This document shows positions 15,196-42,713 of a DNA stretch of 64,000 nt, one piece after another (within the stretch, counting starts at the first letter, position 1; each line of letters begins with the position of its first letter). The stretch lies in NCBI GenBank assembly GCA_023374045.1, contig CM041778.1, forward strand, positions 100,070,839 to 100,134,838, written 5' to 3'. This DNA is from Limonium bicolor (Eukaryota > Streptophyta > Magnoliopsida > Caryophyllales > Plumbaginaceae). Under the pieces are notes generated by a model. It was not told where the DNA came from. It ran no database searches and saw nothing but the letters and a program-made list of their open reading frames with translations. Position numbers and translations under genes: made by a program.

Positions 15196-15196
15196 T

Positions 15197-19429: not shown

Positions 19430-19488
19430 GATGGTGGTCTCTTCGAGGTTCGGTGAGGGAGGGATTGGATAGCAAATATTGAAGGTTC
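19426..19488 (-). pseudogene. Element A AlkB exon, first part (after the AG acceptor)
   Basis: On the minus strand the exon begins at 19488 after AAACCTTAG. It is in phase with the gag exon 3 donor and encodes the FNICYPIP-type start also seen at the beginning of exon 4 in element B. Element C separates it from the rest of the exon at 5497-4817. The intron from 19636 to 19489 is 148 bp. Confidence 0.75.
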
Positions 19489-19636
19489 CTAAGGTTTAGA
19501 ATTATCTAACTTAGGTGAATTTTACATTATACTTTAACTTTACTCATTACTTGTAGTTGTACATTTAGACTCGCTAACACTCGTGCATGAAATGCGGTAA
19601 GCAATCAATTATTTCACTCAACGGTTTAAGTAGTAC

Positions 19637-21082
19637 CTGGTCTAGAAGAGGTTCCAGCTGCCTCTGACCGGTCTACCACATTCAGGGTGGCCTTGCCAGC
19701 TCCCGACCCTTTCCCCTTCTGGGAGTTAGTGTTCCCCTGATCCGAGGATGGCTGACTAGTCGCCTTCGGGCCTTCAGTGGTCGCGGCAGCCTTTCCCTTC
19801 CATTGCCCCGTAGGCCTGTAGTTCCTACCGTTGGGGTTCTGGAAGCACTCGTAGTCTCGATGCCCCATCTTTTTACAGTAGCAGCACTGCACATCGTTAC
19901 CCTTGCAGTCCTTGCCGGGGTGGTCTCCGTTGCACCACTTGCAGTAGTAGTGGTGCTCCGGTCCAGAGCCTGTATTGGCTGCTATCACATTACACCATTA
20001 ATACACATTTCACAACTTAAAACACACACTTCAATTTGGTACTCGGAATTTAGTAATTACCCTTGGGCGGGTGAGAGCGTAGGGGCTTAGCCGCGTAGGC
20101 ATAGGTGAGCTGCAGTGGCTGCTCAGCAGTGGTGGTCTGGGCTTGGCCCTTGACGCCCTGGTGCTGGCCTTTCTGGGACTGGGGGTAAGGTTTCTTCTTT
20201 TTTCCTCCCCCGTACCCTTGCGTGCCTTGGCCTTCGCTCAAAGCCTTGCGCTTATGCGCATTCTCTTCGTCCCACATTCGAACGGTGATCTCGACCTCAG
20301 CAGCGGCATGATAGCACTCCTGAATTTAGGATGTCAGTCATGCCCCGTGAATCAAACTCACATTCACACTTACACATTGTATACACTTATTCACATCAAG
20401 CGGTATTTTAGTTACCTGCAAGGTGGTATATTTAGCTGGCCCTATCCCATAGCGTAGGCGGTGGCTGAGTCCGTTGTAGAAACGGTTTACCAGAACCCGG
20501 TTTGAGTACCCCAGGTCTGGTAGCAGGTGGATAAGGTCAGTGAAGGCAGTGTAGTAGTCATCCACCAACATCTTGTCCCCTTGCCTCAGACTGTCCAGCT
20601 CAAGGCGTGTAGCCTCTTGTACACGCACCGGGTAGTATTTGGCTCGCAGCAGAGCCGTGTACTCCCTCCATCCAAACGCAGGATCAGTAATTTTGTCATC
20701 CCGCACTAGTTTCCACCAACTCCTCCGACCCTGGAACCCTTCAGTAGTAAGCGGCAAGACGAACCTGGGCACCAGCAGGAACATCCAAGGTTTTATAGGC
20801 GGGCTCCAACTCGGAGATGTACGCCTCCAGCTTACTTGGGTCGGTCTCCCCTTGAAAAGATGGGGGCCTCAGATCTGCCAACGCCTTGACCTAGTTGGTC
20901 TCGCGCGGTTGTGGCTGTGGCTGAGCCTCGGGCTGCTGCCGTTGCTGCATCGCAGCGACGAGTTGAGGTACCATCTGGGCTACGGCGGCCGCCATTGCGT
21001 CGGCCATCACTTGTGCCGTAGGGTTATCCCCCGGTTCTCCCGTACTCCGTCCGCGGCCTCCTCCCCGTGGTCGGCCTGCCAT
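19637..21082 (-). pseudogene. Element A gag, three exons, with nonsense mutation
   Basis: Exon 1 (21082-20416) starts MAGRPRGG, the same start as element B. Within it lies the capsid-like Retrotrans_gag segment (FGWREYTALLRAKYYPVRVQ at about 20620-20680). A TGG-to-TAG change after the PQPQPRETN stretch and further shifts break the frame. Exon 2 (20319-20061) encodes ECYHAAAEVEI and a lysine-rich linker. Exon 3 (19981-19637) carries two zinc knuckles, CKWCNGDHPGKDC (C-x2-C-x3-H-x4-C) and CCYCKKMGHRDYEC (C-x2-C-x4-H-x4-C). Introns at 20415-20320 and 20060-19982 have GT-AG ends and occupy the same codons as in element B, which supports real splicing. Confidence 0.85.
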
Positions 21083-21300: not shown

Positions 21301-24068
21301 GTAACACCCCAACTATAAACTTAATGATAAACAGAAACTCCAGTGGAAATTCATAACTTAAACCGTAACTAAAACGAGTCGGTGTTACTAGCCGTTAGCC
21401 ACCCACGTGGCTAACAAGGCTGAATACGTGCAATTGTATCGGTTTGATGCACAGACTCCCGAGCATAGTTACTAACATCCAAAATTACAACCAACTATAC
21501 CGAGTATAAATATTTACAACCATCACAGTAATTCTGACATTACCAAAATATACGACCGCGGGAGCACAGGCGCATCCCGGGTCCATCATCCAAAAACTAA
21601 CAAAGTATTTCTTTACACCTAGGAACTAAAGCCATTCCGCTACTTCGATCCTCATCATGCGAAATGAAATATGGTGCCCCAAAGGGGCTCAGCAACCCAT
21701 GGCTGGTATGATTAACGTGCAGCCCGTCGGCTACCGGGATACACGCAACTAATTGTCATGATAACATGGCATTAATTTAACATACAATACATATAAGCAT
21801 AGCAACAAGCGTTGCATAGCAACAACACACAACATAACAGGAATGTTTCTCCTTAGGAAACGAACCAAACATTAGTTAGTCAACTTGGTAAGCCTAGAGA
21901 ATGATTTCACTCTCATGTTAATCTTGTTACATAACTCGTTACCGTTCTGTTTGTCGAACGATTAACTTAACCCAAAGATGTGTCGGATATAGTGATCCAA
22001 GCACACCGTACATATAATCCCCCTAGCCCGATCAAAAGTCAGGTAGGTAAGCCTCAGTTAGACTTGTGGGTGATTGTAATCCAAGAAGGAAAACAACCAT
22101 AACATAGAGAGGGTCGAATTTGATTCAGATATTGACACCCGTACATACACACGTGACCGGAACGACCGGATTCCTCACCCCCCGGTTATACTCTTATTAG
22201 TAGTCCCATTGTTGGAACTTAACACAATAAATCACAAGTAAGTGTTTAGGCCCAGTTAGGCACACAAGGGAGATGGGATACACTTTAATAACACAAACCA
22301 CAACCAACTCATACATAGCCGTAGTTAGAACGTTCCTTAAGTTGGAACGTTAAAACCGGGTACCGCTCTCTTACGTATCCTAGTTTGGTTAACTAACGGG
22401 TTAGCACGTATTCGACGTTAATTGTACCGGTACACACACGTCACAATAATAACAATGACTGTAAACTCATTTCATGATTTAAGTCTTACAAAGTCATAAA
22501 CACTCAGAAAACAACAAACACACAAGCTGGTGTAAACCGGTAGCAAAAAGACTGCAAGAAAACCATACCTTGGTCCCTGCTGCGTTTGAGTTCCACCGAA
22601 TGCAACTCCTATACATAATTAATAATGTCGATTAATTACCTTGTTTAACTTCCAATTTACTAAGTGTTTTACATGATTACATGACATGTTTTTACGCGTA
22701 ACTTACACTTGATTATCTTCATTATACCCACTAGGGTTTACTACATAAGCCACATTTCTTTTCTGTTTTTTATAAGTATGGGCCGACTGACCCACCGACC
22801 GACCCAACCCCCTGGGTCGGTCCATTCCAGAAACATTCTGGTTCACTGTCTTTTGCCCGACCGACCCACCGACTGACCCAACCCCCTGGGTCGGTCCATT
22901 CCAGAAACTTACCCGCTGCCTTATTACAGTCCGACCGACCCAGCTAGGGTCGGTCCCTTGGGTCGGTCAACTGCAGAACTTTCCCAAAATTGTCTAATCT
23001 TCTCCAAACTTCTCCTCAAGTTTCCTAATAGGTTCTAACATCATTAGGCACTCTTAAAAAAATCATAAATCATCCACCAATTCATTTTCTAACTCACTTC
23101 TAAACTCCTCAAACACTTACTCAATTTCCAACAAAATTCCTAGCACTTATAACATTTTTCCTTACGTATTCAACATGTAGTTTTGCCTAAGGCTTCAACT
23201 AACCAAAGTATTGCCTCACCACCATTACAACTACTCCAAAGCATTATTTCTCAACAACATCTCCCTTACACAAACTCCATAAGATTTTTCCACAAGTTCA
23301 TACCTAATCCTTTATAAGACATTATTCTTCTCTTGTTTACCAAAATTTGCATAAGTCTTAACCACACTCTCACCATGACTTTGGTGCATCTCAAATCACC
23401 CTTTTTATCTCTAAACTTCCATGAACAATGCCTAATTCATTATAATACTTATAAACATTATAATTCCCCTTTCTTTCACCAAATCAACCCTTAACAATTC
23501 CTAGTACAACCTTGGTCACCAACTTCATTTAAATACCTAAAAATTCCTTATTTACCCACCAAATTTTGACATAGCTTCACTAACACTTTCTTACACCAAA
23601 ACACATAACTTTTCATCTTTAAAAAATCAAGGACATTCATCCACACAAGGAATGTTCTTTACACACAACTAAACCTTAAACTACACTACATCACAATATA
23701 GTGCATAAACTTAAATTGCTTGGAACTTAAGCCCTTAAATAACATGGCTCTTAGGCCCTTAAATTGCATTAATCTTAAACACTGAATTTCCCATATAATA
23801 AATGCCTTTGACCTGCAAATACACACAACATCACATATGCCCTTAATAACCTCCTTGTGGATAGTTTTCTAACTCATTTCCCATTGGCTCTTTAGTTTTT
23901 TTATTAGGCAAATATAGCTCAATATCCTAAGGCACAAAAACTACATTAAGCTAGGTTATTTACCTCTTTTCCTTCAAGATTTCTTTCTTCTTTTCTTGGA
24001 TTGAAAATCAGCAGGGAACTTGATCACTTGTCAATCTTCTAACCAACACACATGTAAGGGTAACGAGC
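21301..24068 (-). repeat. 5' LTR of element A, truncated by element B
   Basis: Reading from 21301 to the right is reading the LTR backwards from its GGGGTGTTAC end. The first about 1.45 kb is clearly homologous to the LTR fragment at 43681-45131. It holds the palindromic G-box segment (21394-21415), a GCCCCAAAGGGGC hairpin (21676-21688) and a cluster of CCGACCCA/TGGGTCGG inverted units (22783-22969). From about 23000 to 24068 it is AT-rich with no gene seen. The true LTR start is missing because element B begins at 24069. Confidence 0.8.
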
Positions 24069-27000
24069 TGAAATACCCCCAAACTTAGGTATGGTGTTTA
24101 AATGGTAAACTAAGATATAAGAAGGCTAAATAATGCCTTAGAAACATTAAGAACATTTCTAATCAAAGAAAATATAAGGAAACACCAAAAGAGCAGTTTA
24201 AGCAAAAACGTGCTCTAAGCTTGGAGAGACATGGGAGAGTACCCAAATATTGTTCCAAGACCTTAATAATATCCTAATGGTCATTTTAAGTCAATTACCA
24301 AAGAAAACCAAGCTTGAAAACAAGTTAAAACACAAAATGTGCTTTAAGGAGTCTTAAAGCACGTTTTTGAAAAATTGTCTTGTAAATGAGTTTTGAATGG
24401 CTAAATGTCCATCATTACTCTTTAATTAATATTTATACTATATAGTATCACATTTGGAGGTCTATATCAATGGGAAATCAAAAATTTCACAACAATGTGC
24501 CTTGTTTTTGATGAATAGTGAATTTATTAAGCTAGTTTATAACATAAGTCTATATAAGTGAGACATTTGGTCAACAAAGACTAAACTACCCTCATTACTA
24601 AAAGGGGGCCGGTTTCTTAAGGGGTGTCACCACCTTTATGACTCATTAAGTGATTAAGAAAGCAAATAAGTCTTTTAAAGCCTAAAGTACTATTCACCTT
24701 TTTACATAATATCTCACCTTTAGTGATTCTCTCTCCTCACTTCTTCATTCTTCCTTGTTCACACGGTTTTCTTGCTCTCTTTCTCTTCTCCATTCACGTA
24801 GAGCTCACCTCCATGCTAGCTCCATCTTCTCTTGCACACATCTTGCTCATTTTAGCTCCAAATCCAAAACAAAATACATATTCTTCTTAGTTAGCTCAAG
24901 CTCCTCCTTTCTATCTTTTCAAAACTTCAAGAGCTCCATTTTGGTGCCAAGTCAAACCACCATTAGAGGAGGAAATTCAAGTTTGGAGACTCCATTGGCA
25001 TCTCCATTCTCTTAAGGTAAAGAAAGTGTAAGAAAATCTAGGTTTCCACCATTTTCTTCACTTGACCGAAATATACTCATGGGACTCCATGTTTATGCCT
25101 TGTTCTAGCTTGTTTCTACTCTTCAAAGGGGAGAGGAGGTCCTTCTTGCTTCACATCCAAGTTTGTCTTGAGAAACCAAGGTAAAACAATCACATTAATA
25201 CCTTAAAACATATTTTTAAACCTAGGGTTTGTTCCTTAGGGTTAATGTATTATCTAGTACTCATTGGAGTCATTGAATATTGGTTAGAACATTGGCAAGG
25301 AGAATCACATTGGTGACCGAGATTGAACAAAGAAAACCTAAGGAGAAAAGCTTGTAAGCTTGTGAGAAAACAAGGTAAATTACTTACCTTAAGGTGTCTT
25401 GTTGTTTAAGGGAATGAGATGTGGGTAAATGATGAGCTTAGTGTTTAGTTTATGTGTGGAAGGTGCTATTAAAACCTAGGAGAAACAATGTCTATACTTG
25501 TGAACTTGTGACTAAGGAGCAAATGAGAAAGGAGATAGTTTAAGAATATAAAGGTGAAGTACAAGAAGCATTTTTATTTCAATGGGAGCCTTGTTGAGTG
25601 TATTCGCAGGTTGAAGGCATATATATGTGGAAATTCAGTGGTTAAGATTATTGTCATTTAAGGGCCTAAGTGCCAAGCATTTTAAGTTTAAGCATTATAT
25701 GATGATGTGGTGAAGTTTTAGTGTAAATTGGGTGTTAAGTGTTGTGATGAGAATTTGTGTGGTATTGGTTGTTTGATGGAGAAAAACCATGTGTTAGGAA
25801 GTATTATATACTAGAGAACCCATGGCGAAATTTAAAGGAAAGTTTAAGTGTTAAGATATCCTAAGGGAATTTAATGATTAAGAAAGTACTAGGAATGTTC
25901 TATAGGTTGTCTTGATGAAAAAGGGTGAAGTTAAGGTATTTTAATGACTTATGATGACTTAGGTATCACCATGGAAGGTTTAGGAATCAAGAGAATGTAT
26001 TGGAGTATTTAGGACTTAGGCAAATGTTGGTGTACATCTAGGAAGGAAATAATGTGATGATGATGGAAGTTTAGACTTGTTAAGGAACTTTAAGTGAATG
26101 CTTAAAAGAGTTTAGATAAGTGAGAGATGCTTGGGAGATGATGTTATAGTGGTGAAGAAAACATTTGGCATAGTGGTTACTTTAGGTAAGAACCACCACC
26201 TAGAAACCTAGAGGAAAACATTACAAGTGTTAGCATTATTACAAGGAAAATGCATAAGGACTAAGGTGTATCTTGGGAATGATTTAATGTGATTTGAGGA
26301 GGGCTTAAGGAGTATTTGAGGTGCCCAAATGAGGTTATAACATATTTGGATATATGAGGAAGTTTGGAATTGAAAGAGCAATTTAAGAGGAAGGTCTGTA
26401 GAGGACCGACCCAGGGTCCGACCCAGTGTTGGGTCGGTCGGGCCAAGTTAAGCCAGCCGGAATGCCTCTGGACTGGACCGACCCAGAGGGCTTGGGTCGG
26501 TCGGCTTAGCCTTGGGTCGGTCGGGCAAGATTTAAGTAGGAAAATGGGTTCTGTAAGGGACCGACCCAGAGGGTTTGGGTCGGTCGGTCTAGCTCTGGGT
26601 CGGTCGGATGGGTTTCAAGAGACGGAAGAGTTTCTGTAATGGACCGACCCAGGGGTAGGGTCGGTCGGTGGGTCGGTCGACCCTTAACACTTAGAAAAAA
26701 AAAAGAAATTTCAAATTCTAAGAAAGGTAATGGGTAATGAGGTATGCCCTTGGAAGGGTAGTAATGATTGGGACCCTAAGAACTTAAGGAGTTAAGTTAA
26801 GATTAAGTATAAGTTTTGATGATAAAAGTAAAGTTTGTAAGACTAAGTGATAAAGACTTGAGAGGTTATTGAATGGAAGTCCTTAGAGACTAAGTGAGTT
26901 AAGTAAGGTGCAAATAACTAATAACCTAAAAATGAATGGATGTTTTAGGTTTGTGAATTGGGACCCCGAAGAAGGTTAAACAAACAACGATCGACGGTGA

Positions 27001-28244
27001 ACGGTACAATCCTTTTCGTGACCTGCTTGCTAACGAGGTGTCCCTCGGCTTGTGTGCTATCTGTTTATTTGCTATGACTAAAACAAGATAAAGCATGCAA
27101 CCGGTTATATTGCTCTCGTTGCGATTGTGTTACATTTACACTAACCCGCGAGGCTTGAGATTGTCACTAACCAAGGTTAGTACTTACTGAGTTAAGGTTG
27201 AGAACTAAGTATCGTTGATTGTTGGTTTTACCCGTCAAGGTTTAACTAACACTTGGTAATTAAGGCTTTCACTAACCATAACTTGGGGTGGGAGTGAGGA
27301 ATCCGGAATGGTACCGGCACATGTGTATTGGGGGAGGTCGGTATCTGAATCAGATCCGACTTCCAAATAAGACTGGTCATTAGACTCGTCGCCTAGGGTC
27401 AACAAATCGACCCGACCACCCGGGCTACTGTTCGAGGTGGGAGGCACAATAAGGAAGGCGTGGAGGGATCAAGCCTACATCCCTAATAAGTTAAGGAAGG
27501 TAGCTTATCGTCGGATAGTGCACTACTACCGGCTAGGGTTAACCAAGCCCTACAAAGATAAGCAACCAATTAAGGGCTAACCAATCTAATAGTGGAGAGG
27601 TTGGCAAGTATAAGTTTGAGATTAAGATTAAGGTAAGTTAAGGAACTGAGATTAAGGAACTGAGGACTGAGGCAGGGGGTTATTAACCCACTTGTTAAGG
27701 GAACGCTTGAGTCGTTCATTGGTTGTGAATTATTTATGTTCATCTGGTGGTTATTGTTATTGCACTCCATATTATGTTTGCATATGTAATCAATTTCCAT
27801 GCTATCGACAATTAGTCGTCGTAGCCCCGTTAGCTTGGGGGCCATGAGAGGGTGTACCAGCATTCGTGCTGACCCCCTCGGGGGCTATTTTTACACTTGC
27901 AGGTAAGAGGCCCATGAGGACGCACTACGAGAGTAGGAGCGGTTAGACTTAGGTGGGGGCTTTTATTTTGAGTTCGGGTTGCGCCTGTGCACCCGACTGT
28001 TCATATTTAAATGTTGCAAGTTTGAGATTATGATTGAGACACTAGTACTCGGATGGTCGTGGGATTGTGTATGTTAACGTTTTGAGCTGGATAAATATTT
28101 TGGTTAAGTATTGTATATATTAAGCCGGTATATTCTAACGATCAGACCGTGGCAAGGTCCAAGTGTTGTATATTTCCGCTGCGACGTTTTCGATTAAGTG
28201 TTCAGATTGCGATAACCACGATAGGCTTTGGATGGGGTGTTACA
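24069..28244 (+). repeat. Left (5') LTR of element B
   Basis: It is 4176 bp and starts TGAAATACCCCCAAAC and ends GGGGTGTTACA. It is almost the same as 34581-38744, with sparse substitutions and small indels. It includes the CCGACCCA/TGGGTCGG hairpin cluster (26403-26682) and a CCCCCTCGGGGG palindrome at 27873-27884. Confidence 0.95.
26403..26682. repeat. Inverted-unit (hairpin) cluster in LTR B, GGACCGACCCA...TGGGTCGGTC
   Basis: Four to five units pair GGACCGACCCAG with TGGGTCGGTCGG a short distance downstream. The right LTR holds the same cluster at about 36912-37190. The core is different from that of LTR C, but it occurs at a similar distance from the LTR start (about 2.3 kb compared with 2.2 kb). 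Confidence 0.8.
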
Positions 28245-28248: not shown

Positions 28249-28260
28249 TGGTATCAGAGC
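28249..28260 (+). promoter_or_regulatory. Primer binding site of element B (initiator tRNA-Met type)
   Basis: TGGTATCAGAGC lies four bases after the LTR end, the standard plant initiator tRNA-Met PBS. Confidence 0.92.
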
Positions 28261-28477
28261 GTAGTTACGCTCTGATCAAGAAATACCGGATATAAGTGAC
28301 CACCGAGTTAGAATACAAGTTAAGGAATAAGTATTGGGTTAAGGGTGTGAGAAGTTAGAGTGAGTAGAGTCAGATGACCACTAATAAGTGTGGATTGTCT
28401 TTACCGTCCACGGACGTTATAAATTTACTAACCAAACAGTGGTGAATGTGAATCTAATGTAAGTTATGCTTGTTCAG

Positions 28478-29119
28478 ATGGCAGGACGCCCTAGAGGAGG
28501 CCGAGGTCGCGGCCGGGGTGAGGATATTCCAGGGATACCTGGAGGGCAGACGATCGCAGAGATCGTAGCTGCCGCTTTAGGGCATATGGGCTACCAGCCT
28601 GGTGTGGGTGCACCACCTCCACCGCCACAGCCTAGGGAACCCAACTGGGTGAAGAGTCTGTCAGATCTTCGACCCGCACAATTCAAGGGGGAGACCGATC
28701 CCGCCAAGCTTGAGGCGTACATCTCCGAGCTGGAGACCGCCTTCGAGACCCTTGATGTCCCTGCTGGGATCAAGGTGCGCTTAGCTGCTTTCTACTTGAA
28801 GGGGGCGGCGGGCGATTGGTGGAAGCTGGTGAGGGCCGAGCATGTGGCCAACCCAGAGTTCGGCTGGGAGCAGTACACCGCCTTGCTACGGGCAAAGTAC
28901 TACCCCGCCCATGTCCAGACGAAGAAGCGCTTGCAGTTAGATGCGCTTAAGCAGTCGGACAAGATGACGGTGGACGAGTATTACTCAGAGTTCACCGCCT
29001 TGCTCCGTCTTCTGCCAGGTCTAGGGTATTCTGACCAGATCTTGGTAGACCGCTTCTATGGCGGGCTTAGCCATCGACTCCGCTACGGCATGGGGCCGAC
29101 GAGTTACACTACCTTGCAG
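28478..29119 (+). CDS. gag: Element B gag, exon 1 (matrix/capsid part)
   Basis: I choose the ATG at 28478 (MAGRPRGG) because element A starts identically. Both are preceded by TTCAG, which may be the acceptor of a leader intron; an in-frame ATG at 28466 lies upstream. The N-terminus is Arg/Gly-rich. The Retrotrans_gag-type capsid segment follows from about residue 60, with FKGETDPAKLEAYISELE, AAFYLKGAAGDWWKLV and FGWEQYTALLRAKYYP as landmarks. Gag forms the cytoplasmic particle that packages element RNA. The exon ends ...TTLQ at a phase-0 donor, CAG|GTAATA. Reading through the 85-bp intron meets a stop after seven codons. Confidence 0.88.
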
Positions 29120-29204
29120 GTAATAAGAATGATTGAGAATTGAGTAAGTGATGAATAAGATTTAGATTATGATGAATAAGTAGACTAATACCATGGAAAA
29201 GCAG

Positions 29205-29457
29205 GAGTGCTATCATGCCGCTGCTAAGGTTGAGATTACCGTCCAGCTGAGGGACGAGGAGAATGCAAAGCGGAAGAGTGCTGGGAAGAGCTCAGAAAGT
29301 CAAGGGCAAGGAGGGTACAAGAAACAAAAGTACCAGCCTCAAGCCCAGAAAAATCAGAACCCGAAGGGGAAGGAGGGAAAGGAGAAGGCTCCGGAAGAGC
29401 CATTGAAGCTGACATATGCTTATGCAGCTACACCCCTGCGCTCTAAGGCGCCGAAGG
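29205..29457 (+). CDS. gag: Element B gag, exon 2 (basic linker)
   Basis: The exon starts after AAAGCAG with codons for ECYHAAAKVEI, in frame with exon 1. Element A has the same junction and start. It encodes a charged, Lys/Gln-rich linker of about 84 residues (KKQKYQPQAQKNQNPKGKEG) that may contribute to RNA binding, then LTYAYAATPLRS. It ends at a phase-1 donor, AAGG|GTAAGA. The following 78-bp intron ends ATGATCAG. Both intron positions match element A. Confidence 0.82.
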
Positions 29458-29535
29458 GTAAGAATTGGTATTACATAAGTTAAGAAACAACTAGTAACCA
29501 TTTGGGATGCGAATACTGACATTGTGAATGATCAG

Positions 29536-29877
29536 GATCTGAGACTGAGAAAGGAGCCGGTGGTGGCTACCAACGACGCTTCATCTGTAGATGGTGTCAC
29601 AAGGACCACCCCGGGCTCGACTGTAAGGGGAACAAAGTAGAGTGCAACTTCTGCGGAGTACTTGGACACCGAGCATATGAGTGCTACGGGAATCCAGAGA
29701 GTAAGAATTTCAGACCCAGTTTCAAAGTTAAGGCCAAGGCTGATCAGGGATCTGGATCTGACGGTCAGAGGAGGGGGCAACCAGCTGCAGACAAGAACCC
29801 AAGGGTGACCCAGAAGACGGGGCCCACTCTACACATGGTGGATCGGGACGACGAGCCTGAGCCCTCGTCGAGGCCAG
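29536..29877 (+). CDS. gag: Element B gag, exon 3 (nucleocapsid zinc knuckles)
   Basis: The exon encodes two CCHC knuckles: CRWCHKDHPGLDC, a C-x2-C-x3-H-x4-C variant one residue shorter than usual, and CNFCGVLGHRAYEC, the standard C-x2-C-x4-H-x4-C. A basic, Gly/Gln-rich tail ends in SSRP. These knuckles bind RNA in Gag. The exon ends in a phase-1 donor (CCAG|GTACCA) that can join in frame to the AlkB acceptor at 30009 or to the pol acceptor at 30904. Without splicing the frame reads GTTVTI and stops at a TAG. Element A has the same donor and also stops at once (GTT, stop). Confidence 0.85.
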
Positions 29878-30008
29878 GTACCACTGTAACTATCTAGTAG
29901 TAAAACTACCTGCTTACCGCATTATCATGCATGTTTGGTGAAATATATGAGTTAAGTGAAGATAAGATGAGACTAGAACCTAAGTAAGATATAACCTACT
30001 ACCTTTAG

Positions 30009-30748
30009 GAAGATTCAACATCTGCTACCCCATACCATCTACACCTAACCCGGAGCACACCAACATCGAAACCACACACTTTCCAACCGAACAATGTCAG
30101 GTTATCCGCCCAGGTATGATTTTATTAAGGGGATACCTGACACCCGACGCACAAATAGCCATCATCAGGAGATGCAATCAACTAGGAATGGGACCGGGAG
30201 GTTTTTACACACCGGAGTACCCAGGGGGAGCAAGGATGAAATTAAAGATGATGAGCTTGGGCAAGGATTGGAATCCGTATGCCAAGAATTACCAAACCAC
30301 AAGGGAGCAAGATGGAGTCTCACCACCGGGGATACCCGAAGAGTTCCATCCAGTTATTACACAAGTCGTGGAAATCGCTCAGCAGTTGGAAGCTGAACCG
30401 ATTCCAGACATCCAGCCAGACATTTGCATTGTAAACTTCTACGAAAAAGATGGAAAACTGGGACTACACCAGGATAAGGACGAGACAACGGAGTCTCTCG
30501 AGAGAGGGATACCCGTAGTGTCTTGGTCCATTGGAGATGATGCGGAATTTTTATACGGCGAGCAGAAGCGTGCGGACCGTGCAGATAAGATAATACTTAA
30601 GTCAGGCGATGTACTAATTTTGGGAGGAGAATCAAGGATGTTATACCATGGGATTAAGAGAATCAAGCTCAATACAGCACCGCCAGCAGTAATCAATGCG
30701 ACGCACATGAGACCAGGAAGATTAAACCTAACCTTTAGACAATATTAG
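30009..30748 (+). CDS. AlkB-like 2-oxoglutarate/Fe(II) dioxygenase exon of element B
   Basis: The exon opens after CTACCTTTAG, in phase with gag exon 3, and runs 246 codons to a TAG. Numbered from the internal Met at 30116, it has N-x-Y at 107-109, the iron ligands H118 and D120 in LGLHQDKDE, the distal ligand H178 in GGESRMLYHGI, and R202/R208 in RLNLTFRQ. That is the full AlkB-family catalytic set and it looks closest to bacterial-type AlkB. Known AlkB enzymes oxidatively remove methyl groups such as 1-methyladenine, 3-methylcytosine or, in some plant homologues, N6-methyladenine. Here a Gag-AlkB fusion acting on element nucleic acid is inferred. No intact AlkB motif is lost, in contrast to element A. 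Confidence 0.9.
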
Positions 30749-30820
30749 CCATGTAATGTTAGAATGAGATGAGAAATGAGATGTAAGATTGAAGCACATG
30801 TTGTAAACAGGATGGTCATG

Positions 30821-30826
30821 AATAAA
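30821..30826 (+). terminator. Candidate poly(A) signal after the AlkB stop of element B
   Basis: AATAAA lies 73 bases after the AlkB stop and 78 bases before the pol acceptor, with TGTAA words upstream. An equivalent AATAAA is present in element A. It would allow an AlkB-terminated mRNA. Confidence 0.4.
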
Positions 30827-30903
30827 ATAACAGTGTTGTTTACATAAATTGTTACGACTCTTGTTATACCATCAATACTCATGGAGCTTGTGAATACAAT
30901 TAG

Positions 30904-31400
30904 GTTATGGACTCGGTACGGAAGGTGCACTAAGCATACTCACAGAGGCACAGGCCGACGTTAGCGGTACTATCCTCACCGCCACCTTTCCGATCAATGG
31001 AATCGAGGCATCAGTTCTCTTCGACTCAGGGGCCTCGCATACCTTTGCTCTGCATCATTCGCGAGCAGGTTGGGGCTAGACGCTGATGAGCTACCCGACT
31101 TCACGGTTACGCTCCCGTCTAAGGAGAAGGTTCGTTGCACTCGTTACTACCGAGGAGCCACCATCAGAATTAAGGGGAAGACTTCCAGTCAGTTTCATTG
31201 AGTTCAGTAAGCTAGGATTTGATGTTATCTTCGGGATGAACTGGTTGGAGCGGCACAAGGGACGTATCCTCTGCGCCGAGCATAGATTGCTGCTCAGGAG
31301 TCCATCTGGGGTAACAATATCATACCGCCAGAGGCCCGAGAGCCTTCGACTAAGATCATCACCGCCATGGCAATGCAAAGAGAAATAAGGAGAAAGGAAG
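30904..31400 (+). pseudogene. Element B pol exon start: aspartic protease, frameshifted
   Basis: The exon begins after ACAATTAG and, joined to the single base left by gag exon 3, reads GYGLGTEGALS and then the retropepsin motif LFDSGASHTF. About 20 bases later it is one base shorter than element A, which shifts the frame. A later shift restores the frame for the LGFDVIFGMNWLERHKGRIL segment. As assembled the protease cannot be made in one piece. Single-base losses could also be assembly errors. Confidence 0.8.
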
Positions 31401-32293
31401 AAGTATACCTCTGCTATGTACAGGACATAGAGAGAGACCTGAGTTCGACCCCGACTTACCGGTAGTGTCGGAGTTCCCCGACTTATTTCCACGGGAACTG
31501 CCCGGCATGCCACCCACTCGGGAGGTAGAGTTCACCATTGAGCTGCTACCTGGTACCGGACCGATAGCCAAAGCACCATATCGTATGGCTCCGGCAGAAA
31601 TGACTGAATTAAAGAACAACTGAAAGATTTGTTGGATAAAGGATTTGTCAGACCAAGTGTGTCACCATGGGGAGCGCCAGTCCTCTTCGTGAAGAAGAAG
31701 GATGGTAGCCTCCGCCTCTGCATCGACTACAGAGAGCTGAATGCATAACAGTAAGAAGAGTACCCACTACCCCCCCTATTGACGATCTGTTTGATCAGTT
31801 GAAGGGAGCATCTGTGTTTTCCAAGATTGATCTCAGATCGGGGTATCATCAGATAGCCATTAAGGAGGGAGACATTGAGAAGACGGCATTCCGGACACGA
31901 TACGGCCACTATGAGTTTACAGTGATGCCGTTCGGTTTGTCGAACGCGCCAGCGAAGTTTATGGATCTGATGAACCGCTTGTTCCGGGAGCAGCTGGACA
32001 AGTCGGTTGTGGTTTTTATTGATGATATATTGATATATTCAAAGTCTAAGATTGAGCATGAGGAACATTTGAGAAGGGTGTTGGAAATATTAAGGGAGAA
32101 CCAGCTATATGCTAAGTTCTCCAAGTGTGAGTTTTGGCTTGACCAGGTCTCTTTCCTAGGTCATGTCATCTCAGATGCTGGGATCGCAGTGGATCCAGCA
32201 AAGATTGATGCCGTACGTACCTGGCCAAGGCCGAAGACTGTTACCGACATCGGAGCTTTCTCGGTCTGGCAGGTTACTACAGGAGGTTTGTGA
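31401..32293 (+). pseudogene. Element B reverse transcriptase, frameshifted
   Basis: Conserved blocks in order are the [21 protein letters not shown] lead-in, [14 protein letters not shown] and CIDYREL (with shifts near 31612 and 31745), [12 protein letters not shown] and FIDDILIYS. In the open stretch from 31799 the FIDD box is residues 73-76. The frame is lost again just before the expected [11 protein letters not shown] motif, whose codons are present one base out of frame at about 32255-32285. Confidence 0.88.
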
Positions 32294-32800
32294 GAGATTT
32301 CAGCAAGGTCGCGAAGCCGATGACCAGTCTGATGAAGAAAGATGCACCATTTCTATGGACAGTGACTGTGAGAGATCATTTCAGCGCTTGAAGGACTCAC
32401 TGACCACTGCACCGGTTCTGACCATTCCAGACGGTACAGAGGGCTTTGAGGTTTATTGTGATGCATCCGGCAGAGGGCTGGGTTGCGTGCTCATGCAACA
32501 TGGCAAGTGGTGGCATATGCCTCACGCCAGTTGAAGAAACATGAGGAGAACTACCCCACACATGATTTAGAGCTGGGAGCTGTAGTCTTCGCTTTGAAGA
32601 TATGGCGCCACTACTTATATGGGGTTAGTGTCACGATCTACACCGATCACAAAGTTTGAAATACATATTCACTCAGAAGGAGTTAAATCTTCGACAGAGG
32701 AGATGGTTAGAATTTCTGAAAGACTATGACATTGACCTCCAATACAAAGAAGGGAAGGCCAATGTTGTAGCGGATGCCCTGAGCCGTCGAGCACACTCAC
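32294..32800 (+). pseudogene. Element B RNase H, frameshifted
   Basis: [16 protein letters not shown] at about 32440-32490 carries the first catalytic Asp. Later pieces are the [21 protein letters not shown] block, the YTDHK motif near 32640 and the connection [17 protein letters not shown]. Shifts near 32515 and 32655 interrupt it. It would degrade RNA in the RNA-DNA hybrid and form the PPT primer. Confidence 0.82.
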
Positions 32801-33729
32801 TCCATTCGCTAGTTTCTTTCTCCAGCTTGGTTGATGAGGTGCGAGAGGCTCAGAGGACTGATGAGTATATGAGAGAGGTCAGACAGAAGCTGACAGATGG
32901 TACCTTTGAGAGTCAGAAATACGACTTCAGACTTCATGATGATGATCTGATCAGACTTAAGGGCCGATTATGCATACCACGAGGTAACACGGATCTGAAA
33001 GACCGTATACTTAGAGAATCACACTGTTCTTCAGTTTCCATCCATCCGGGAGCCTCTAAAATGTATAAAGACATGAAGAGATACTTCTGGTGGTCGGGGA
33101 TGAAGACAGATGTTACCGAGTTCGTCTTGAGGTGTCTCACATGCCAGAAGGTGAAATTCGAGCACAGACGACCGGGCGGAATGGTACAGTCGATGCCAGT
33201 TCCGGAGTGGAAGTTCCATGATATCTCCATGGACTTCGTAGTTGGGCTTCCACCTGCTAGGGGAGGTCTCAACATGATATGGGTGGTGGTGGATCGCCTT
33301 ACCAAAGTAGCCCGATTCATACCGATGAAGGATACTTGGAAGGTGACCAAATTAGCTGAGTTATTTGAGAAAGAAATCATGAGGCACCACGGCATACCAA
33401 AGACCATAGTGTCAGATAGAGATACCAGATTCCTTTCGAGGTACTGGAGAGCTACCAGAGAAGCGTTGGGTACAGAACTCAAACTGAGTACCGCGTTCCA
33501 TCCTCAGACAGATGGTCAGACTGAGCGTACTATTCAGACACTCGAGGACATGCTGAGAGCATGTGCCTTAGACTTCCAGGGCAGTTGGATTGACAGATTG
33601 CATCTGATCGAGTTTTCATACAACAACAGCTATCACGCTTCGATCAAGATGGCACCTTTTCAAGCGTTGTACGGTAGACCATGTCGTACACCGCTCTGCT
33701 GGGATGAGTCGAGTGAGACGGTCATATAG
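32656..33729 (+). pseudogene. Element B integrase, long open part of the broken pol
   Basis: A 357-codon open frame begins in the end of RNase H and holds a complete integrase core. The zinc-binding HHCC residues are H123, H130, C160 and C163. The DDE triad is D193 (SMDF), D254 (IVSDRD) and E290 (GQTER), with spacings typical of retroviral integrases. The frame is lost just before the GPEYLEQ segment, one base out. Confidence 0.88.
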
Positions 33730-34270
33730 GACCAGAGTACTTAGAACAAGTTCAGGCTGAAGTTCAGCAAATCAGGGAGAACATGAGAGCTGCTCAAGAT
33801 AGGCAGAAGTCGTATGCTGATGTTCGACGACGAGACCTGGAGTTCGCAGTGGGCGACCGGGTATTTCTGCGAGTATCACCGATGAAGGGTGTATTTAGGT
33901 TTGGGCAGAAGGGCAAGTTAAGCCCGAAATTTGTTGGTCCTTATGAGATTACGGAGCGGGTGGGCCCAGTTGCTTACAGGTTGAATTTACCTGCTGAGCT
34001 GGGTAAAGTGCATGATGTTTTCATGTTTCACAGCTAAAGAAATACATGCACCACCCCTCCCATGTGTTAGAACCTGAGAGGTTGACCTTAGAACCAAATA
34101 TGAGATCCGTGGAGACTCCTCAGAGAATCTTGGACAGAAAGACTAGGGACACTCGCCACAAGTCAGTGCGACTGGTGAAGGTTCTCTGGTCTAACCAGGA
34201 TGTCGAAGAGGCCACGTGGGAATTAGAGGATAAGATGAGGGCGAAGTACCCTTCTTTATTTACTGACTAG
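33730..34270 (+). pseudogene. Element B integrase C-terminus and chromodomain
   Basis: The 33783-34037 stretch encodes FRFGQKGKLSPKFVGPYEI, the GPY/F-type module. After a small shift, 34046-34270 encodes a C-terminal chromodomain region, QRILDRKTRDTR, then SVRLVKVLWSN and EEATWELEDKMRAKYPSLF, and the final stop. A C-terminal chromodomain defines chromoviruses, and this form is typical of Tekay/Del. It is thought to guide integration to marked chromatin. Confidence 0.85.
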
Positions 34271-34580: not shown

Positions 34581-37500
34581 TGAAATACCCCAAACTTAGG
34601 TATGGTGTTTAAATGATAAACTAAGATATAAGGAGGCTAAATAATGCCTTAGGAACATTAAGAAACATTTCTAATCAAAGAAAATATAAGGAAACACCAA
34701 AAGAGCAGTTTAAGCAAAAACGTGCTCTAAGCTTGGAGAGACATGGGAGAGTACCCAAATATTGTTCCAAGACCTTAGTAATATCCTAATGGTCATTTTA
34801 AGTCAATTACCAAAGAAAACCAAGCTTGAAAACAAGTTAAAACACAAAATGTGCTTTAAGGAGTCTTAAAGCACGTTTTTGAAAAATTGTCTTGTAAATG
34901 AGTTTTGAATGGCTAAATGTCCATCATTACTCTTTAATTAATATGTACTATATAGTATCACATTTGGAGGTCTATATCAATGGGAAATCAAAAATTTCAC
35001 AACAATGTGCCTTGTTTTTGATGAATAGTGAATTTATTAAGCTAGTTTATAACATAAGTCTATATAAGTGAGACATTTGGTCAACAAAGACTAAACTACC
35101 CTCATTACTAAAAGGGGGCCGGTTTCTTAAGGGGTGAGTCACCACCTTTATGACTCATTAAGTGATTAAGAAAGCAAATAAGTCTTTTAAAGCCTAAAGT
35201 ACTATTCACCTTTTTACATAATATCTCACCTTTAGTGATTCTCTCTCCTCACTTCTTCATTCTTCCTTGTTCACACGGTTTTCTTGCTCTCTTTCTCTTC
35301 TCCATTCACGTAGAGCTCACCTCCATGCTAGCTCCATCTTCTCTTGCACACATCTTGCTCATTTAAGCTCCAAATCCAAAACAAAATAGATATCCTTCTT
35401 AGTTAGCTCAAGCTCCTCCTTTCTATCTTTTCAAAACTTCAAGAGCTTCATTTTGGTGCCAAGTCAAACCACCATTAGAGGAGGAAATTCAAGTTTGGAG
35501 ACTCCATTGGCATCTCCATTCTCTTAAGGTAAAGAAAGTGTAAGAAAATCTAGGTTTCCACCATTTTCTTCACTTGACCGAAAATATATACTCATGGGAC
35601 TCCATGTTTATGCCTTGTTCTAGCTTGTTTCTACTCTTCAAAGGAGAGAGGAGGTCCTTCTTGCTTCACATCCAAGTTTGTCTTGAGAAACCAAGGTAAA
35701 ACAATCACATTAATACCTTAAAACATATTTTTAAACCTAGGGTTTGTTCCTTAGGGTTAATGTGTTATCTAGTACTCATTGGAGTCATTGGATATTGGTT
35801 AGAACATTGGCAAGGAGAATCACATTGGTGACCGAGATTGAACAAAGAAAACCTAAGGAGAAAAGCTTGTAAGCTTGTGAGAAAACAAGGTAAATTACTT
35901 ACCTTAAGGTGTCTTGTTGTTTAAGGGAATGAGATGTGGGTAAATGATGAGCTTAGTGTTTAGTTTATGTGTGGAAGGTGCTATTAAAACCTAGGAGAAA
36001 CAATGTCTATACTTGTGAACTTGTGACTAAGGAGCAAATGAGAAAGGAGATAGTTTAAGAATATAAAGGTGAAGTACAAGAAGCATTTTATTTCAATGGG
36101 AGCCTTGTTGAGTGTATTCGCAGGTTGAAGGCATATATATGTGGAAATTCAGTGGTTAAGATTATTTATTTAAGGGCCTAAGTGCCAAGCATTTTAAGTT
36201 TAAGCATTATATGATGATGTGGTGAAGTTTTAGTGTAAATTGGGTGTTAAGTGTTGTGATGAGAATTTGTGTGGTATTGGTTGTTTGATGGAGAAAAACC
36301 ATGTGTTAGGAAGTACTATATACTAGAGAACCCATGGCGAAATTTAAAGGAAGTTTAAGTGTTAAGATATCCTAAGGGAATTTAATGACTAAGAAGTACT
36401 AGGAATGTTCTATAGGTTGTCTTGATGAAAAAGGGTGAAGTTAAGGATTTTAATGACTTATGATGACTTAGGTATCACCATGGAAGGTTTAGGAATCAAG
36501 AGAATGTATTGGAGTATTTAGGACTTAGGCAAATGTTGGTGCACATCTAGGAAGGAAATAATGTGATGATGATGGAAGTTTAACTTGTTAAGGAACTTAA
36601 GTGAATGTTTAAAAGAGTTTAGATAGTGAGAGATGCTTGGGAGATGATGTTATAGTGGTGAAGGAAACATTTGGCATAGTGGTTACATTAGGTATGAACC
36701 ACCACAAAGAAACCTAGAGGAAAAACATTACAAGTGTTAGCATTATTACAAGGAAAATGCATAATGACAAGGTGGATTTTGGTGGATGATTTAAGGTATT
36801 TGAGGAGGGCTTAAGGAGTATTTGAGGTGCCCAAATGAGGTTATAACATATTTGGATATATGAGGAGAAGTTTGGAATTGAAAGAGGCAATTTAAGAGGA
36901 AGGTCTGTAGAGGACCGACCCAGGGTCCGACCCAGTGTTGGGTCGGTCGGGCCAAGTTAAGCCAGCCGGAATGCCTCTGGACTGGACCGACCCAGAGGGC
37001 TTGGGTCGGTCGGCTTAGCCTTGGGTCGGTCGGGCAAGATTTAAGTAGGAAAATGGGTTCTGTAAGGGACCGACCCAGAGGGTTTGGGTCGGTCGGTCTA
37101 GCTCTGGGTCGGTCGGATGGGTTTCAAGAGAGGGAAGAGTTTCTGTAATGGACCGACCCAGGGGTAGGGTCGGTCGGTGGGTCGGTCGACCCTTAACACT
37201 TAGAAAAAAAAAAAGAAATTTCAAATTCTAAGAAAGGTAATGGGTAATGAGGTATGCCCTTGGAAGGTGTAGTAATGATTGGGACCCTAAGAACTTAAGG
37301 AGTTAAGTTAAGATTAAGATAAGTTTTGATGATAAAAGTAAAGTTGTAAGACTAAGTGATAAAGACTTGAGAGGTTATTGAATGGAAGTCCTTAGAGACT
37401 AAGTGAGTTAAGTAAGGTGCAAATAACTAATAACCTAAAAATGAATGAATGTTTTAGGTTTGTGAATTGGGACCCCGAAGAAGGTTAAACAAACAACGAT

Positions 37501-38744
37501 CGACGGTGAACGGTACAATCCTTTTCGTGACCTGCTTGCTAACGAGGTGTCCCTCGGCTTGTGTGCTATCTGTTTATTTGCTATGACTAAAACAAGATAA
37601 AGCATGCAACCGGTTATATTGCTCTCGTTGCGATTGTGTTACATTTACACTAACCCGCGAGGCTTGAGATTGTTACTAACCAAGGTTAGTACTTACTGAG
37701 TTAAGGTTGAGAACTAAGTATCGTTGATTGTTGGTTTTACCCGTCAAGGTTTAACTAACACTTGGTAATTAAGGCTTTCACTAACCATAACTTGGGGTGG
37801 GAGTGAGGAATCCGGAATGGTACCGGCACATGTGTATTGGGGGAGGTCGGTATCTGAATCAGATCCGACTTCCAAATAAGACTGGTCATTAGACTCGTCG
37901 CCTAGGGTCAACAAATGACCCGACCACCCGGGCTACTGTTCGAGGTGGGAGGCACAATAAGGAAGGCGTGGAGGGATCAAGCCTACATCCCTAATAAGTT
38001 AAGGAAGGTAGCTTATCGTCGGATAGTGCACTGCTACCGGCTAGGGTTAACCAAGCCCTACAAAGTAACCAATTAAGGGCTAACCAATCTAATAGTGGAG
38101 AGGTTGGCAAGTATAAGTTTGAGATTAAGATTAAGGTAAGTTAAGGAACTGAGATTAAGGAACTGAGGACTGAGGCAGGGGGTTATTAACCCACTTGTTA
38201 AGGGAACGCTTGAGTCGTTCATTGGTTGTGAATTATATATGTTCATCTGGTGGTTATTGTTATTGCACTTCATATTATGTTTGCGTATGTAATCAATTTC
38301 CATGCTATCGACAATTAGTCGTCGTAGCCCCGTTAGCTTGGGGGCCATGAGAGGGTGTACCAGCATTCGTGCTGACCCCCTCGGGGGCTATTTTTACACT
38401 TGCAGGTAAGAGGCCCATGAGGACGCACTACGAGAGTAGGAGGAGCGGTTAGACTTAGGTGGGGGCTTTTATTTTGAGTTCGGGTTGCGCCTGTGCACCC
38501 GACTGTTCATATTAAAATGTTGCAAGTTTGAGATTATGATTGAGACTAGTACTCGGATGGTCGTGGGATGTGTGATGTTAATGTTTTGAGCTGGATAAAT
38601 ATTTTGGTTAAGTATTGTATATAAGCCGGTATGTTCTAACGATCAGACCGTGGCAAGGTCCAAGTGTTGTATTTTCCGCTGCGACGTTTTCGATTAAGTG
38701 TTCAGATTGCGATAACCACGATAGGCTTTGGATGGGGTGTTACA
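34581..38744 (+). repeat. Right (3') LTR of element B
   Basis: It is 4164 bp and matches 24069-28244 almost throughout, with a few indels. The hairpin cluster is at about 36912-37190 and the GC palindrome at 38376-38387. It ends ...GGGGTGTTACA and meets CACTA-type sequence directly. Confidence 0.95.
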
Positions 38745-38870
38745 CAAAAATCATTTCCTTTTTCGGTAATTTCAAAATTACTGAAAATTTGAGGAAAACG
38801 TTTTTCAGCGGTGCGAAATGTCGAAATTAGTGTAAAAAATCCACCGAAAAAGGCCTGTTTTATACTAGTG
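38745..38870. mobile_element. Terminus of a CACTA (CMC/EnSpm) DNA transposon
   Basis: Read from 38870 leftwards the sequence begins CACTAGTATAAAACAGGCC, a typical plant CACTA terminal inverted repeat, followed by TTTTTCGGTGG. Subterminal words TTTTTCGGT and TTTCGACATTT are repeated in variants. Only this end is present; element B adjoins it at 38744 and no second terminus was seen in the window. Confidence 0.65.
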
Positions 38871-40558: not shown

Positions 40559-42713
40559 ATGTTGGAGAAGATGAAATTGAAAAGATGCTTGTGTTTGTAC
40601 TTCACGGTTTTGTTAATCTTACTGTTTACTGCTATTGTGCATGAGAACTCGGATGCTACAAGCATTGGAAGTTTTGCAAATGCCGGATATAACTTGGCTC
40701 TCTTGGGTATGACAAGTCAAACAGCACAATTGTCTTATTCTTAGTTATCTCTCATATTTTGTAGCTCTTCTTCATCATATTAAAAAAATTCACCCACGTT
40801 ATTTTTGTGTTTTACTTTTTTTTTTTAACTAAAAACTGATAAAATCATTGATAATGATGCCGGAAATGATAGTGGTTGAATTTATCTATTTATTTTAACA
40901 TGCAATCTATCTAGATGGAGAGAAGACTCCATACGAAAAGCTAGCTTTTTGGTGTGCTGATGTTTTAGTCTATTTTAACATTCGGTTTGGAATTTGAGTC
41001 TTTCTTTCTCGATGATAAACTTTTTACTAGTATATTTCACTCTGCTCTACATTTTTCTGTTCCTAATTAATTGTTTGCTTTACTAACTTAATCGCCTTAT
41101 ATATGTAATTTCATATCACTGTTAATTTTGTTGCAGCTAATTTCACAGCCCCAATTTACGATAAACCACTCTCGTCCCAGTGTGTACCTCATGATTCTAC
41201 CAACTCGTCTACATCCGGCACTCTCGATCACACGAGTGAGTCACCGGGCTCACGACCAGTCCTGACGCCAAAATTCCGATGCCTGAGCAGGGAAGAATCC
41301 CCCTCGTACATAAGACATTCACCCTACAAGCCTTCGCCTTATCTCCTCTCCAAACTCCGTAACTACGAGGAACTACATCGCCGGTGCGGACCCTACACCG
41401 CCGCCTACAATCGTACCGTTACAGTCCTTAAACAATCACTAAACACTACCTCCTCGTCCACCACCGAGTGCAGTTACGTCGTGTATGGCGCAGTCTACGG
41501 CTTGGGTAACAGAATCATAACCCTAGCCTCCACCTTCCTGTACGCTCTCCTCACCAACCGCGTCCTCTTTGTGGACTTTGGACGTGACATGACCGGCTTG
41601 TTCTGTGAGCCTTTCCCATACTCATCGTGGATTCTGCCGAGTGATTTCTCAGATAAGGAAGGTGGTTTCCAGCGGCACGAGACCTTCCAGAGCATTATGG
41701 GGAGATACAAAAAAGCTCAAAACGACAACGACAATGGCAACATAACACTGCCGTCCATATCCCATGTCAACTTACGAAGTGTACCGGGCAGAGATAACCT
41801 ACGGATATTCCATTGCGATGAGGGGCATGTTCTTCTGAATAAAGTCCCGGTTCTGGCCATGATATCAGATATATATTTCATCCCATCCCTTTTCATGACC
41901 CCGTCTTTCACTGACGAGTTGGGTAAGATGTTCCCGCAGAAGGAAGCTGTGTTCCATCACCTCAGTCGGTATCTGTTCCATCCATCAGACGAGGCGTGGG
42001 ATCTTATCAAGAAGTTCTATGATGCAAACATGGGTAACGTGGATGAGAAAATTGGTCTTCAGATTCGAGTTTTCAATCCAAAAGTGGCTACTAAAGAAGT
42101 TGTGATGGATCATATCCTAGCTTGCACACAAGGACATAACATCCTGCCTAAAGTAGACTCCTTATTACAGCAGGATCCACAGGTGAACTCTTCTTCTGTG
42201 AAACGCGTGACTGATCATACCTACAAGAGTGTGATGGTGGCTTCTCTACACCCCGACTACGCTATGAACTTGAGCGAAATGTACGGACCTTCAAGACCCA
42301 CAACCTACGGAGAAGTGATTGAGATTCACCAGGCGAGCCATGACGGGCAGCAGAGATCCGGTAATATGAGGCATAATTTGCAGGCGTGGGTGGAGATGTA
42401 CTTGCTCAGCCTATGTGACAAGTTAGTGACGAGTTCCAGCTCCACCTTCGGATATGTTGCTCAAGGGCTTGGAGGGTTGAAACCGTGGGTTCTGATGAGC
42501 CACCGTCCTGCTGTCAATACGACTAGCACGGAGGTTGACCCGATTTGTGTGAGGGCTGCTACTGTTGATCCCTGCTTTCATGCCCCGCCCAAATTTGATT
42601 GCAGGTCGGGTCAGAAGGTTGACACTTTGAGTAGTGTTTTCTCTTTCGTTAAGATTTGTGAGGATCGACCGCATGATGGGATCAGGCTCAGCGACAATCA
42701 CGGCGATAGATAG
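40559..42713 (+). CDS. FUT: Xyloglucan-type alpha-1,2-fucosyltransferase (GT37), two exons
   Basis: Exon 1 is 40559-40706, the intron 40707-41136 (GTATGA...TTGCAG, 430 bp, phase 1) and exon 2 41137-42713, giving 574 residues with no internal stop. Residues 10-28 (CLCLYFTVLLILLFTAIV) form a type II signal anchor, so a Golgi enzyme with a lumenal catalytic domain is expected. Family landmarks follow: FRCLSREE, KPSPYLLSKLRNYEELHRRCGPYT, GLGNRI with FLYALLTNRVLFVDF, and IGLQIRVF at about 355-362, the GDP-fucose motif region. Several N-x-S/T sites occur, such as NFT at 51. Plant GT37 enzymes transfer fucose to galactose on xyloglucan or arabinogalactan proteins; the exact acceptor is not decidable here. 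It is the only intact host gene in the window. Confidence 0.93.

Follow-up and report, generated by a model that had tools for sequence, protein, structure and literature searches.

The window, that is, the whole stretch of 64,000 nucleotides of Limonium bicolor DNA that was analysed, carries on its forward strand an LTR retrotransposon, here termed element B, in which a domain of the AlkB family lies between gag and pol. A second element with the same order of domains, element A, is found on the opposite strand. The features of element B are as follows.

24069-28244, + strand: 5' LTR, from pairwise LTR alignment, with ends TGAAATACCCC...GGGGTGTTACA
28249-28260, + strand: primer binding site TGGTATCAGAGC, an exact sequence match
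28478-29119, + strand: gag exon g1, capsid region (Retrotrans_gag 5.7e-18, Ty3_capsid 4.6e-13)
29120-29204, + strand: intron 1, 85 nt, GT..AG, 72% AT
29205-29457, + strand: gag exon g2, from the alignment of A with B and from copies
29458-29535, + strand: intron 2, 78 nt, GT..AG, 67% AT
29536-29877, + strand: gag exon g3 with zinc knuckle, ending at donor 3 (AG/GTACC, phase 1)
29878-30008, + strand: predicted intron 3, up to the AlkB acceptor, 66% AT
30009-30748, + strand: AlkB (ALKBH1-type) terminal exon with a TAG stop at 30746-30748, from Pfam, sequence and fold matches and copies
30821-30826, + strand: AATAAA, a candidate poly(A) signal for the AlkB exon, aligned with an AATAAA in element A at 4705 and seen in copies
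30904-34270, + strand: pol exon with protease, reverse transcriptase, RNase H, integrase and chromodomain; acceptor TTAG/GTTATGG, phase 1
34581-38744, + strand: 3' LTR, from pairwise LTR alignment

The two LTRs of element B, each of about 4.2 kb, are 99.06% identical (K2P 0.0095). No matching 5-bp target duplication could be seen by eye beside their outer ends (24054-24068 and 38745-38759), and the element may therefore be a recombinant or may have lost its duplication. We take the primer binding site at 28249, TGGTATCAGAGC, to be of the tRNA-iMet type. Profile searches placed, downstream of AlkB, a protease (RVP_2, 4.7e-05) followed by reverse transcriptase, RNase H, integrase and a chromodomain (PF00385, E 4.3e-06, 27 bits against a cut-off of 25.1) in the usual order. 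Element B is a chromodomain Ty3/gypsy element and, judged by features alone, namely the chromodomain and a tRNA-Met-type primer site, it would be placed among the chromoviruses. The pol region is broken, with open reading frames in changing frames. In g3, the zf-CCHC profile is found at E 0.0038 and 17.7 bits, under the Pfam cut-off of 20.8, and inspection by eye shows one CCHC motif in canonical form and a second in variant form. A tRNA-Met primer site is described as typical of most chromoviruses (PMC6317226).

The stop-free frame from 29984 to 30748 on the forward strand (254 residues) matches PF13532, 2OG-FeII_Oxy_2, with an E-value of 2.3e-45 over the whole profile, and its score of 155.6 bits, against a curated cut-off of 31.2, places it in the AlkB family. 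Position 30009 marks a predicted exon boundary, not a codon start: translated in frame 1, 30009-30748 contains stops, and the in-frame reading is 30011-30745. The N-x-Y, H-x-D, distal His and R-x5-R motifs are all intact. The original prediction, made from the sequence without database searches, had proposed a complete AlkB-like domain between the gag zinc knuckle and the protease and had named a profile search giving no AlkB match as grounds for dropping the idea; both the domain and its placement are confirmed by the profile score, the motifs and the domain order.

Amongst proteins of known structure, the nearest by sequence is rice ALKBH1 (OsALKBH1, 5xeg; E 2.2e-76), followed by E. coli AlkB (2.6e-25) and then by mammalian ALKBH1 (1.9e-11), and all 21 PDB matches at E <=0.1 belong to one of these three. 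A predicted model of the 245-residue exon product, with a mean pLDDT of 92.2, has OsALKBH1 (5xoi) as its top PDB fold match, with TM-scores of 0.84/0.91 and 52% identity. The closest solved and named relatives of the element domain are therefore plant ALKBH1C/D of the OsALKBH1 type, and a placement in the ALKBH5 class was rejected on the same 21 matches. OsALKBH1 (5xeg/5xoi) is listed as ALKBH1C/1D and as a DNA N6-methyladenine demethylase; its reported substrates are 6mA and perhaps m6A (PMC8118384). The element domain may have demethylase activity. A pattern scan of viral contigs (query A2) returned 244 pattern matches, none of which was confirmed.

Element A lies on the minus strand with gag, AlkB and pol in the order seen in B; a different LTR element is inserted in its AlkB exon after some 21 codons. 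The features of element A are listed below.

19489-21082, - strand: gag exons of element A, beginning with the ATG at 21082, and three introns (20415-20320, 20060-19979, 19636-19489) homologous in position to those of B
19426-19488, - strand: 5' part of the AlkB exon, broken off by the nested insertion
5498-19425, strand not assigned: other LTR element nested in the AlkB exon of A, LTRs 98.1% identical
4817-5485, - strand: remainder of the AlkB exon, decayed
1448-4631, - strand: pol exon, decayed, with its acceptor at 4631

The nested element has LTRs of about 4.2 kb with terminal letters as in B and the same primer site at 9762, and its interior holds no open reading frame of more than 115 residues; it is probably a non-autonomous relative.

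The AlkB domain of element A has one in-frame stop, and a His replaces the first 2OG-binding Arg. Comparison of the A and B domains gave 96.7 synonymous differences over 131.0 sites and 89.3 nonsynonymous differences over 460.0 sites, that is, a dN of 0.22 and a dN/dS of about 0.07, a ratio which is merely indicative since dS (3.1) is saturated. By codon position the differences number 49/34/97. Elsewhere in the two elements, dN/dS is 0.07 for the integrase C-terminus, 0.19 for a protease piece and 0.22 for the zinc-knuckle exon, and dS could not be computed for the reverse transcriptase and two integrase pieces. As the synonymous sites are near saturation, element A represents another family and not a recent decayed copy of B. 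The description of A as holding a decayed copy, made before these searches, was right about the matching place and wrong if read as a recent copy of B. The comparison of dN/dS between element copies proposed with it bears out constraint, within the limit set by saturation. Judged from these alignments, A and B are old, separate families, both of which kept AlkB under protein constraint.

Copies of the domain were sought in the 2.92-Gb assembly (2,686 contigs), where a permissive first search with AlkB returned 53,502 candidates, a figure which is not a copy count. The best 149 of these, the window's own included, were scored; none falls below 96% identity, and all but one (148 of 149) are free of internal stops. 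Three of the matches (G000:C7, positions 266190040, 266200138 and 266210238) follow one another on the same strand at intervals of about 10.1 kb, the spacing that a tandem array of elements with LTRs in common would give. Amongst 29 other loci of the scored list, the AlkB stop is intact in all, and indel events per kb amount to 16, 24 and 14 in introns 1-3, to 2.0, 4.0 and 6.2 in g1-g3, to 2.2 at the start of pol and to 0.05 in AlkB. Mismatches to B at these loci reach 5.0, 14.5 and 5.9% in the three introns and 1.8, 4.5 and 8.5% in the three gag exons. Although g3 differs from B more than introns 1 and 3 do, it has fewer indels and its changes fall mostly at third positions: by codon position, the mismatches are 52/23/245 in g1, 52/34/239 in g2 and 152/207/480 in g3. 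Over the initial 143 nt of the pol exon the counts are 6/47/47, with no clear codon pattern.

The 29 loci, like a further set of 16, were chosen by similarity to AlkB, so that their intact AlkB frames say little. A second query with the gag exon gave 70,570 candidates, of which 150 were scored, all at least 99% identical, and 14 loci beyond the window's own were examined. All 14 have AlkB at the expected place, with 581-592 of 592 nt aligned, yet only four keep the frame open as far as the sequence end or the natural stop, and in ten it is broken. Against B, these gag-chosen copies show differences of 60/25/102 by codon position and 5.4 indel events per kb in AlkB. With four of 14 frames open and this rate of indels, AlkB is not specially spared from decay, and the apparent sparing in the AlkB-chosen set (29/29 frames open) was set aside as a selection bias. 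Amongst copies with near-identical gag, AlkB is a standard part of the element, under selection in the active lineage and decaying in dead copies. The possibility that other copies lack the exon, which would have made it a private insertion, did not materialise, as none of the 14 gag-chosen copies is without it; a private insertion was rejected on this count, on the 149 scored matches and on the presence of the domain in a second, diverged family.

Within the family, the true frame of AlkB has a pN/pS of 0.13 over 40 copies (the window's included), and reading the two wrong frames gives 1.14 and 2.27 (39 copies each). A smaller comparison of 19 copies, from a set of 30 of which 11 had no ungapped full-length alignment, gave 0.10. 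No in-frame stop occurs in the 40 copies, and the seven cofactor residues of the H-x-D...H, R-x5-R and N-x-Y set are kept in all 40, apart from R243, which is kept in 39. As 39 of the 40 were chosen for AlkB similarity, which lowers pN, the comparison of A with B is the better evidence of constraint. The broken frames in ten of the 14 gag-chosen copies are what would be seen if AlkB were a captured host exon copied without benefit by a successful element; we hold this to be very improbable, given the constraint between long-diverged families and within one family and the wrong-frame pN/pS values above 1. That the AlkB stretch reflects an error of annotation or assembly, or a neighbouring host gene, was rejected and has a negligible probability, as two families and the examined copies have AlkB flanked by gag and pol. 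AlkB in this element is a real, conserved and abundant feature, and the word exon, used for it in the original prediction, is apt for what proves to be an integral and constrained part of the element.

As for the origin of the exon, a tree of 68 rows was built, including 62 rows hand-chosen from 181 other AlkB relatives listed. Elements A and B form one clade with four further sequences, P0001-P0004, with support of 100/100 and a stem of 0.9, apart from the 62 other plant-type ALKBH1 rows (the root being a midpoint root, with no row known to be non-angiosperm included). P0001-P0004 are 62-74% identical to B; P0001 and P0003 fall inside the clade defined by A and B, and P0002 and P0004 outside it. 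P0001 and P0003 are therefore probably derived from elements, a placement made by tree and signatures only. The element clade and plant ALKBH1 have in common the best sequence and fold match, equal cofactor residues and an FDIC-like block upstream; the clade differs in its separate position with a long stem, in a shorter linker after FDIC and in a GDDAEFLxGxxKR stretch, which by eye is present in B and P0001-P0004 (five of the six clade members, A differing). These results fit one old capture, after which the enzyme would have spread in the element lineage.

The gag introns were called from the alignment of A with B, where coding blocks are parted by short AT-rich gaps with GT...AG ends at matching places. 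Over the 29 loci, the GT of donor 1 is present in 25 (four unaligned) and the AG of acceptor 1 in 28 (one unaligned), the GT of donor 2 in 24 (one GA, four unaligned) and the AG of acceptor 2 in 25 (four unaligned). Reading through in the gag frame meets a stop in intron 1 in 35 of 35 copies and in intron 2 in all 34 that hold it, the scoring set being 39 copies, of which four had no intron 1 and five no intron 2 to score; the idea that the introns are read-through coding sequence was rejected, as every scorable intron has an in-frame stop. Nine of 53 distinct other copies (the 39 together with the 14 gag-chosen ones) lack intron 1, intron 2 or both: six lack both, two only intron 1 and one only intron 2, so that intron 1 is missing in eight and intron 2 in seven. 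The missing stretches are exactly 85 and 78 nt with no insertion, and their borders are as predicted, with a slide of 1-4 nt in short repeats. The copies concerned are L008, L009, L010, L025, L043, L049, L050, L051 and L052. Such exact intron-less copies mean that element RNA is spliced at introns 1 and 2 and is sometimes reverse transcribed; read as retrocopies in the assembly, they show removal of both introns from the element's own RNA. The nine copies may stem from few events, with a minimum of two (loss of intron 1 and loss of intron 2). The ATG of gag, with an AG (28476-28477) directly before it, is present in 16 of 16 copies; the AG, which element A has as well, is possibly the acceptor of a leader intron.

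Donor 3, of phase 1, is in phase with both the AlkB acceptor (30009) and the pol acceptor (30904), and both acceptors occur in element A as well, at 19488 (AlkB) and 4631 (pol). The GT of the donor and the AG of each acceptor are intact at 29/29 and 16/16 loci, that is, in 39 distinct copies, as the two sets share six. Past donor 3, the gag frame meets a stop after six codons in all 39 copies. Read in the frame that the acceptor at 30904 sets, pol stays open over 1,125 codons in one of 16 copies (9-498 in the other 15), as expected if this acceptor starts the pol exon; an alternative acceptor about 40 nt downstream was dropped, its AG not being conserved in element A. Junctions of g3 with AlkB or with pol were found in none of the 53 other copies, and no copy has intron 3 removed either way. 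The retention of intron 3 in 53 of 53 copies fits a genomic RNA that has to retain it, and splicing at donor 3 is predicted. On phase, conserved sites and in-frame stops, we infer alternative Gag-AlkB and Gag-Pol products from donor 3. The original prediction was right about the domain and did not mention the gag introns or the donor common to two acceptors; the Tekay clade that it named is a candidate placement for the element.

The first ATG of the AlkB reading frame is at residue 45, and the conserved FNICYP block, common to B and A, lies upstream of it. As there is no ATG before residue 45 and conserved coding sequence precedes it, AlkB would be joined to Gag by splicing. It is also conceivable, if unlikely, that the exon is a separate reading frame within the gag-pol intron, translated alone and unfused by reinitiation, from an internal start or from its own transcript, as in Phalaenopsis, where the element has a separate AlkB ORF2 (PMC9289625). 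Met45 could start a protein of 210 residues, as in predicted protein P0001; such a start, however, would leave out FNICYP, of which P0002 has the similar form FDICYP, would lose a conserved RPG, and would leave unexplained why the AlkB acceptor is conserved and in phase with gag.

The AATAAA downstream of AlkB is kept in 29/29 and 16/16 copies, and by shuffling, 0.23 and 0.15 such motifs per element are expected by chance in AT-rich DNA, so that AATAAA alone could be chance. The 155 nt from the AlkB stop to the pol acceptor (30749-30903) vary in an exon-like manner, with 2.7% mismatches and 2 indels per kb against 14-24 in the introns; this low variation suggests a kept 3' UTR or processing signal. 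The exon's own stop and the aligned AATAAA would also suit an exon that is mainly regulatory, a terminal exon letting splicing set the ratio of Gag to Gag-Pol, and in EVD/Copia the GAG output is reported to be set by splicing-coupled early polyadenylation (PMC8892269). A mere terminator, however, needs neither the kept cofactor residues nor the constraint on the protein, which makes this reading improbable.

We consider it the leading explanation, with a probability of roughly two in three, that a high-copy chromodomain Ty3/gypsy lineage captured a plant ALKBH1-type dioxygenase long ago and has kept it as an alternative terminal exon placed between gag and pol. In this scheme, gag RNA is spliced at the two small introns. 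Without use of donor 3, the product would be Gag carrying a short tail. Joining of donor 3 to the first acceptor would yield Gag-AlkB, which ends at AlkB's stop and whose RNA may have a poly(A) site of its own, and joining to the second would yield Gag-Pol. From known biology, a Gag-AlkB fusion would be carried by Gag into the particle, beside the genomic RNA and the new cDNA, where AlkB may remove N-methyl groups (m6A/6mA or m1A/m3C-type lesions). The effect would be to safeguard the reverse transcription template or, alternatively, to remove a mark by which the host holds the RNA back; demethylation or repair of the element's own RNA or cDNA is what the original prediction had suggested as a possible function. 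The genomic RNA would have to keep intron 3, as otherwise the next generation would lose AlkB or the choice. The fuller proposition stands at about even odds in our estimation: that Gag-AlkB, made by alternative splicing against Gag-Pol, brings an ALKBH1-type demethylase into the particle, where it cleans the element's RNA or cDNA or removes a host mark, and that Ty3/gypsy elements here acquired AlkB independently for a second time, from a different class and with a new means of delivery.

The view, taken at the outset, that an AlkB domain is not known as a standard part of Ty3/gypsy elements has to be corrected, since a precedent is published. Gypsy_Pa_2799 of Phalaenopsis is described as having an ALKBH5-like ORF2 with m6A demethylase activity in vitro, in 25-kb Tat/Ogre-like elements, and the screen of 121 genomes published with it reports such a domain only for the two Phalaenopsis genomes (PMC9289625). 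Both Gypsy_Pa_2799 and element B are Ty3/gypsy elements with an AlkB-type 2OG-Fe(II) domain retained over many copies. As described, the former belongs to the Tat/Ogre lineage and has a tRNA-Arg primer site, a dual RNase H, a single gag-pol reading frame and a separate ORF2 of 565 residues, whereas element B combines a chromodomain and gag introns with a tRNA-Met-type primer site and has its ALKBH1-like domain placed between gag and pol. Membership of the Phalaenopsis family was rejected on the Met-type primer site, the chromodomain and the position of AlkB between gag and protease. Amongst the open-access matches listed, no further AlkB domain in a plant LTR element was found beyond that paper and a review citing it. 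The presence of AlkB in a Ty3/gypsy element is already known, and the present case differs in lineage, AlkB class, position and mode of expression. The exon architecture, and not the mere presence of AlkB, is the most surprising part.

A 2025 review describes plant LTR elements as lacking introns in general and names Ogre and EVADE as notable exceptions (PMC12786077). Like element B, Ogre and EVD/BARE are described as having an intron between gag and pol or a spliced subgenomic GAG RNA; the relevant passages of these papers (PMC6317226, PMC12786077, PMC8892269) describe no enzyme exon. Compared with Ogre and EVD/BARE as described there, element B has two further introns within gag and two acceptors on one donor. 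AlkB domains are also cited for plant Alphaflexiviridae, Betaflexiviridae and Closteroviridae (PMC9289625), which, likened by description only, are parasitic RNA replicators with AlkB and yet replicators of a different kind. Methylation of plant retroelement RNA at m6A is reported to lead to its sequestration in stress granules (PMC12786077), and ALKBH9B is reported to release ONSEN RNA from this sequestration (PMC9289625).

Taken with the Phalaenopsis case and the plant RNA viruses, element B indicates that parasitic replicators have acquired AlkB more than once. This recurrence suggests that, in plants, retroelement nucleic acid is under a real constraint from base methylation or alkylation. 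An enzyme of the ALKBH1 type makes the target, DNA (cDNA) or RNA, a testable question. The gag introns with their common donor offer a system for the balance between spliced messenger and unspliced genomic RNA, in which intron-less copies serve as a record of splicing. Elsewhere in the window, there is an intact-looking fucosyltransferase gene at 41109-42713 (+), whose relatives carry PF03254; its identity to the plant proteins used for comparison does not exceed 52%. In a tree with 41 of 120 listed fucosyltransferases it falls near Nepenthes, Ancistrocladus and Droseraceae, on a very long branch and with an SH-aLRT of 90, a placement to which no weight is given. There is also an array of a 49-nt repeat at 51598-53171 with 23 registered positions.
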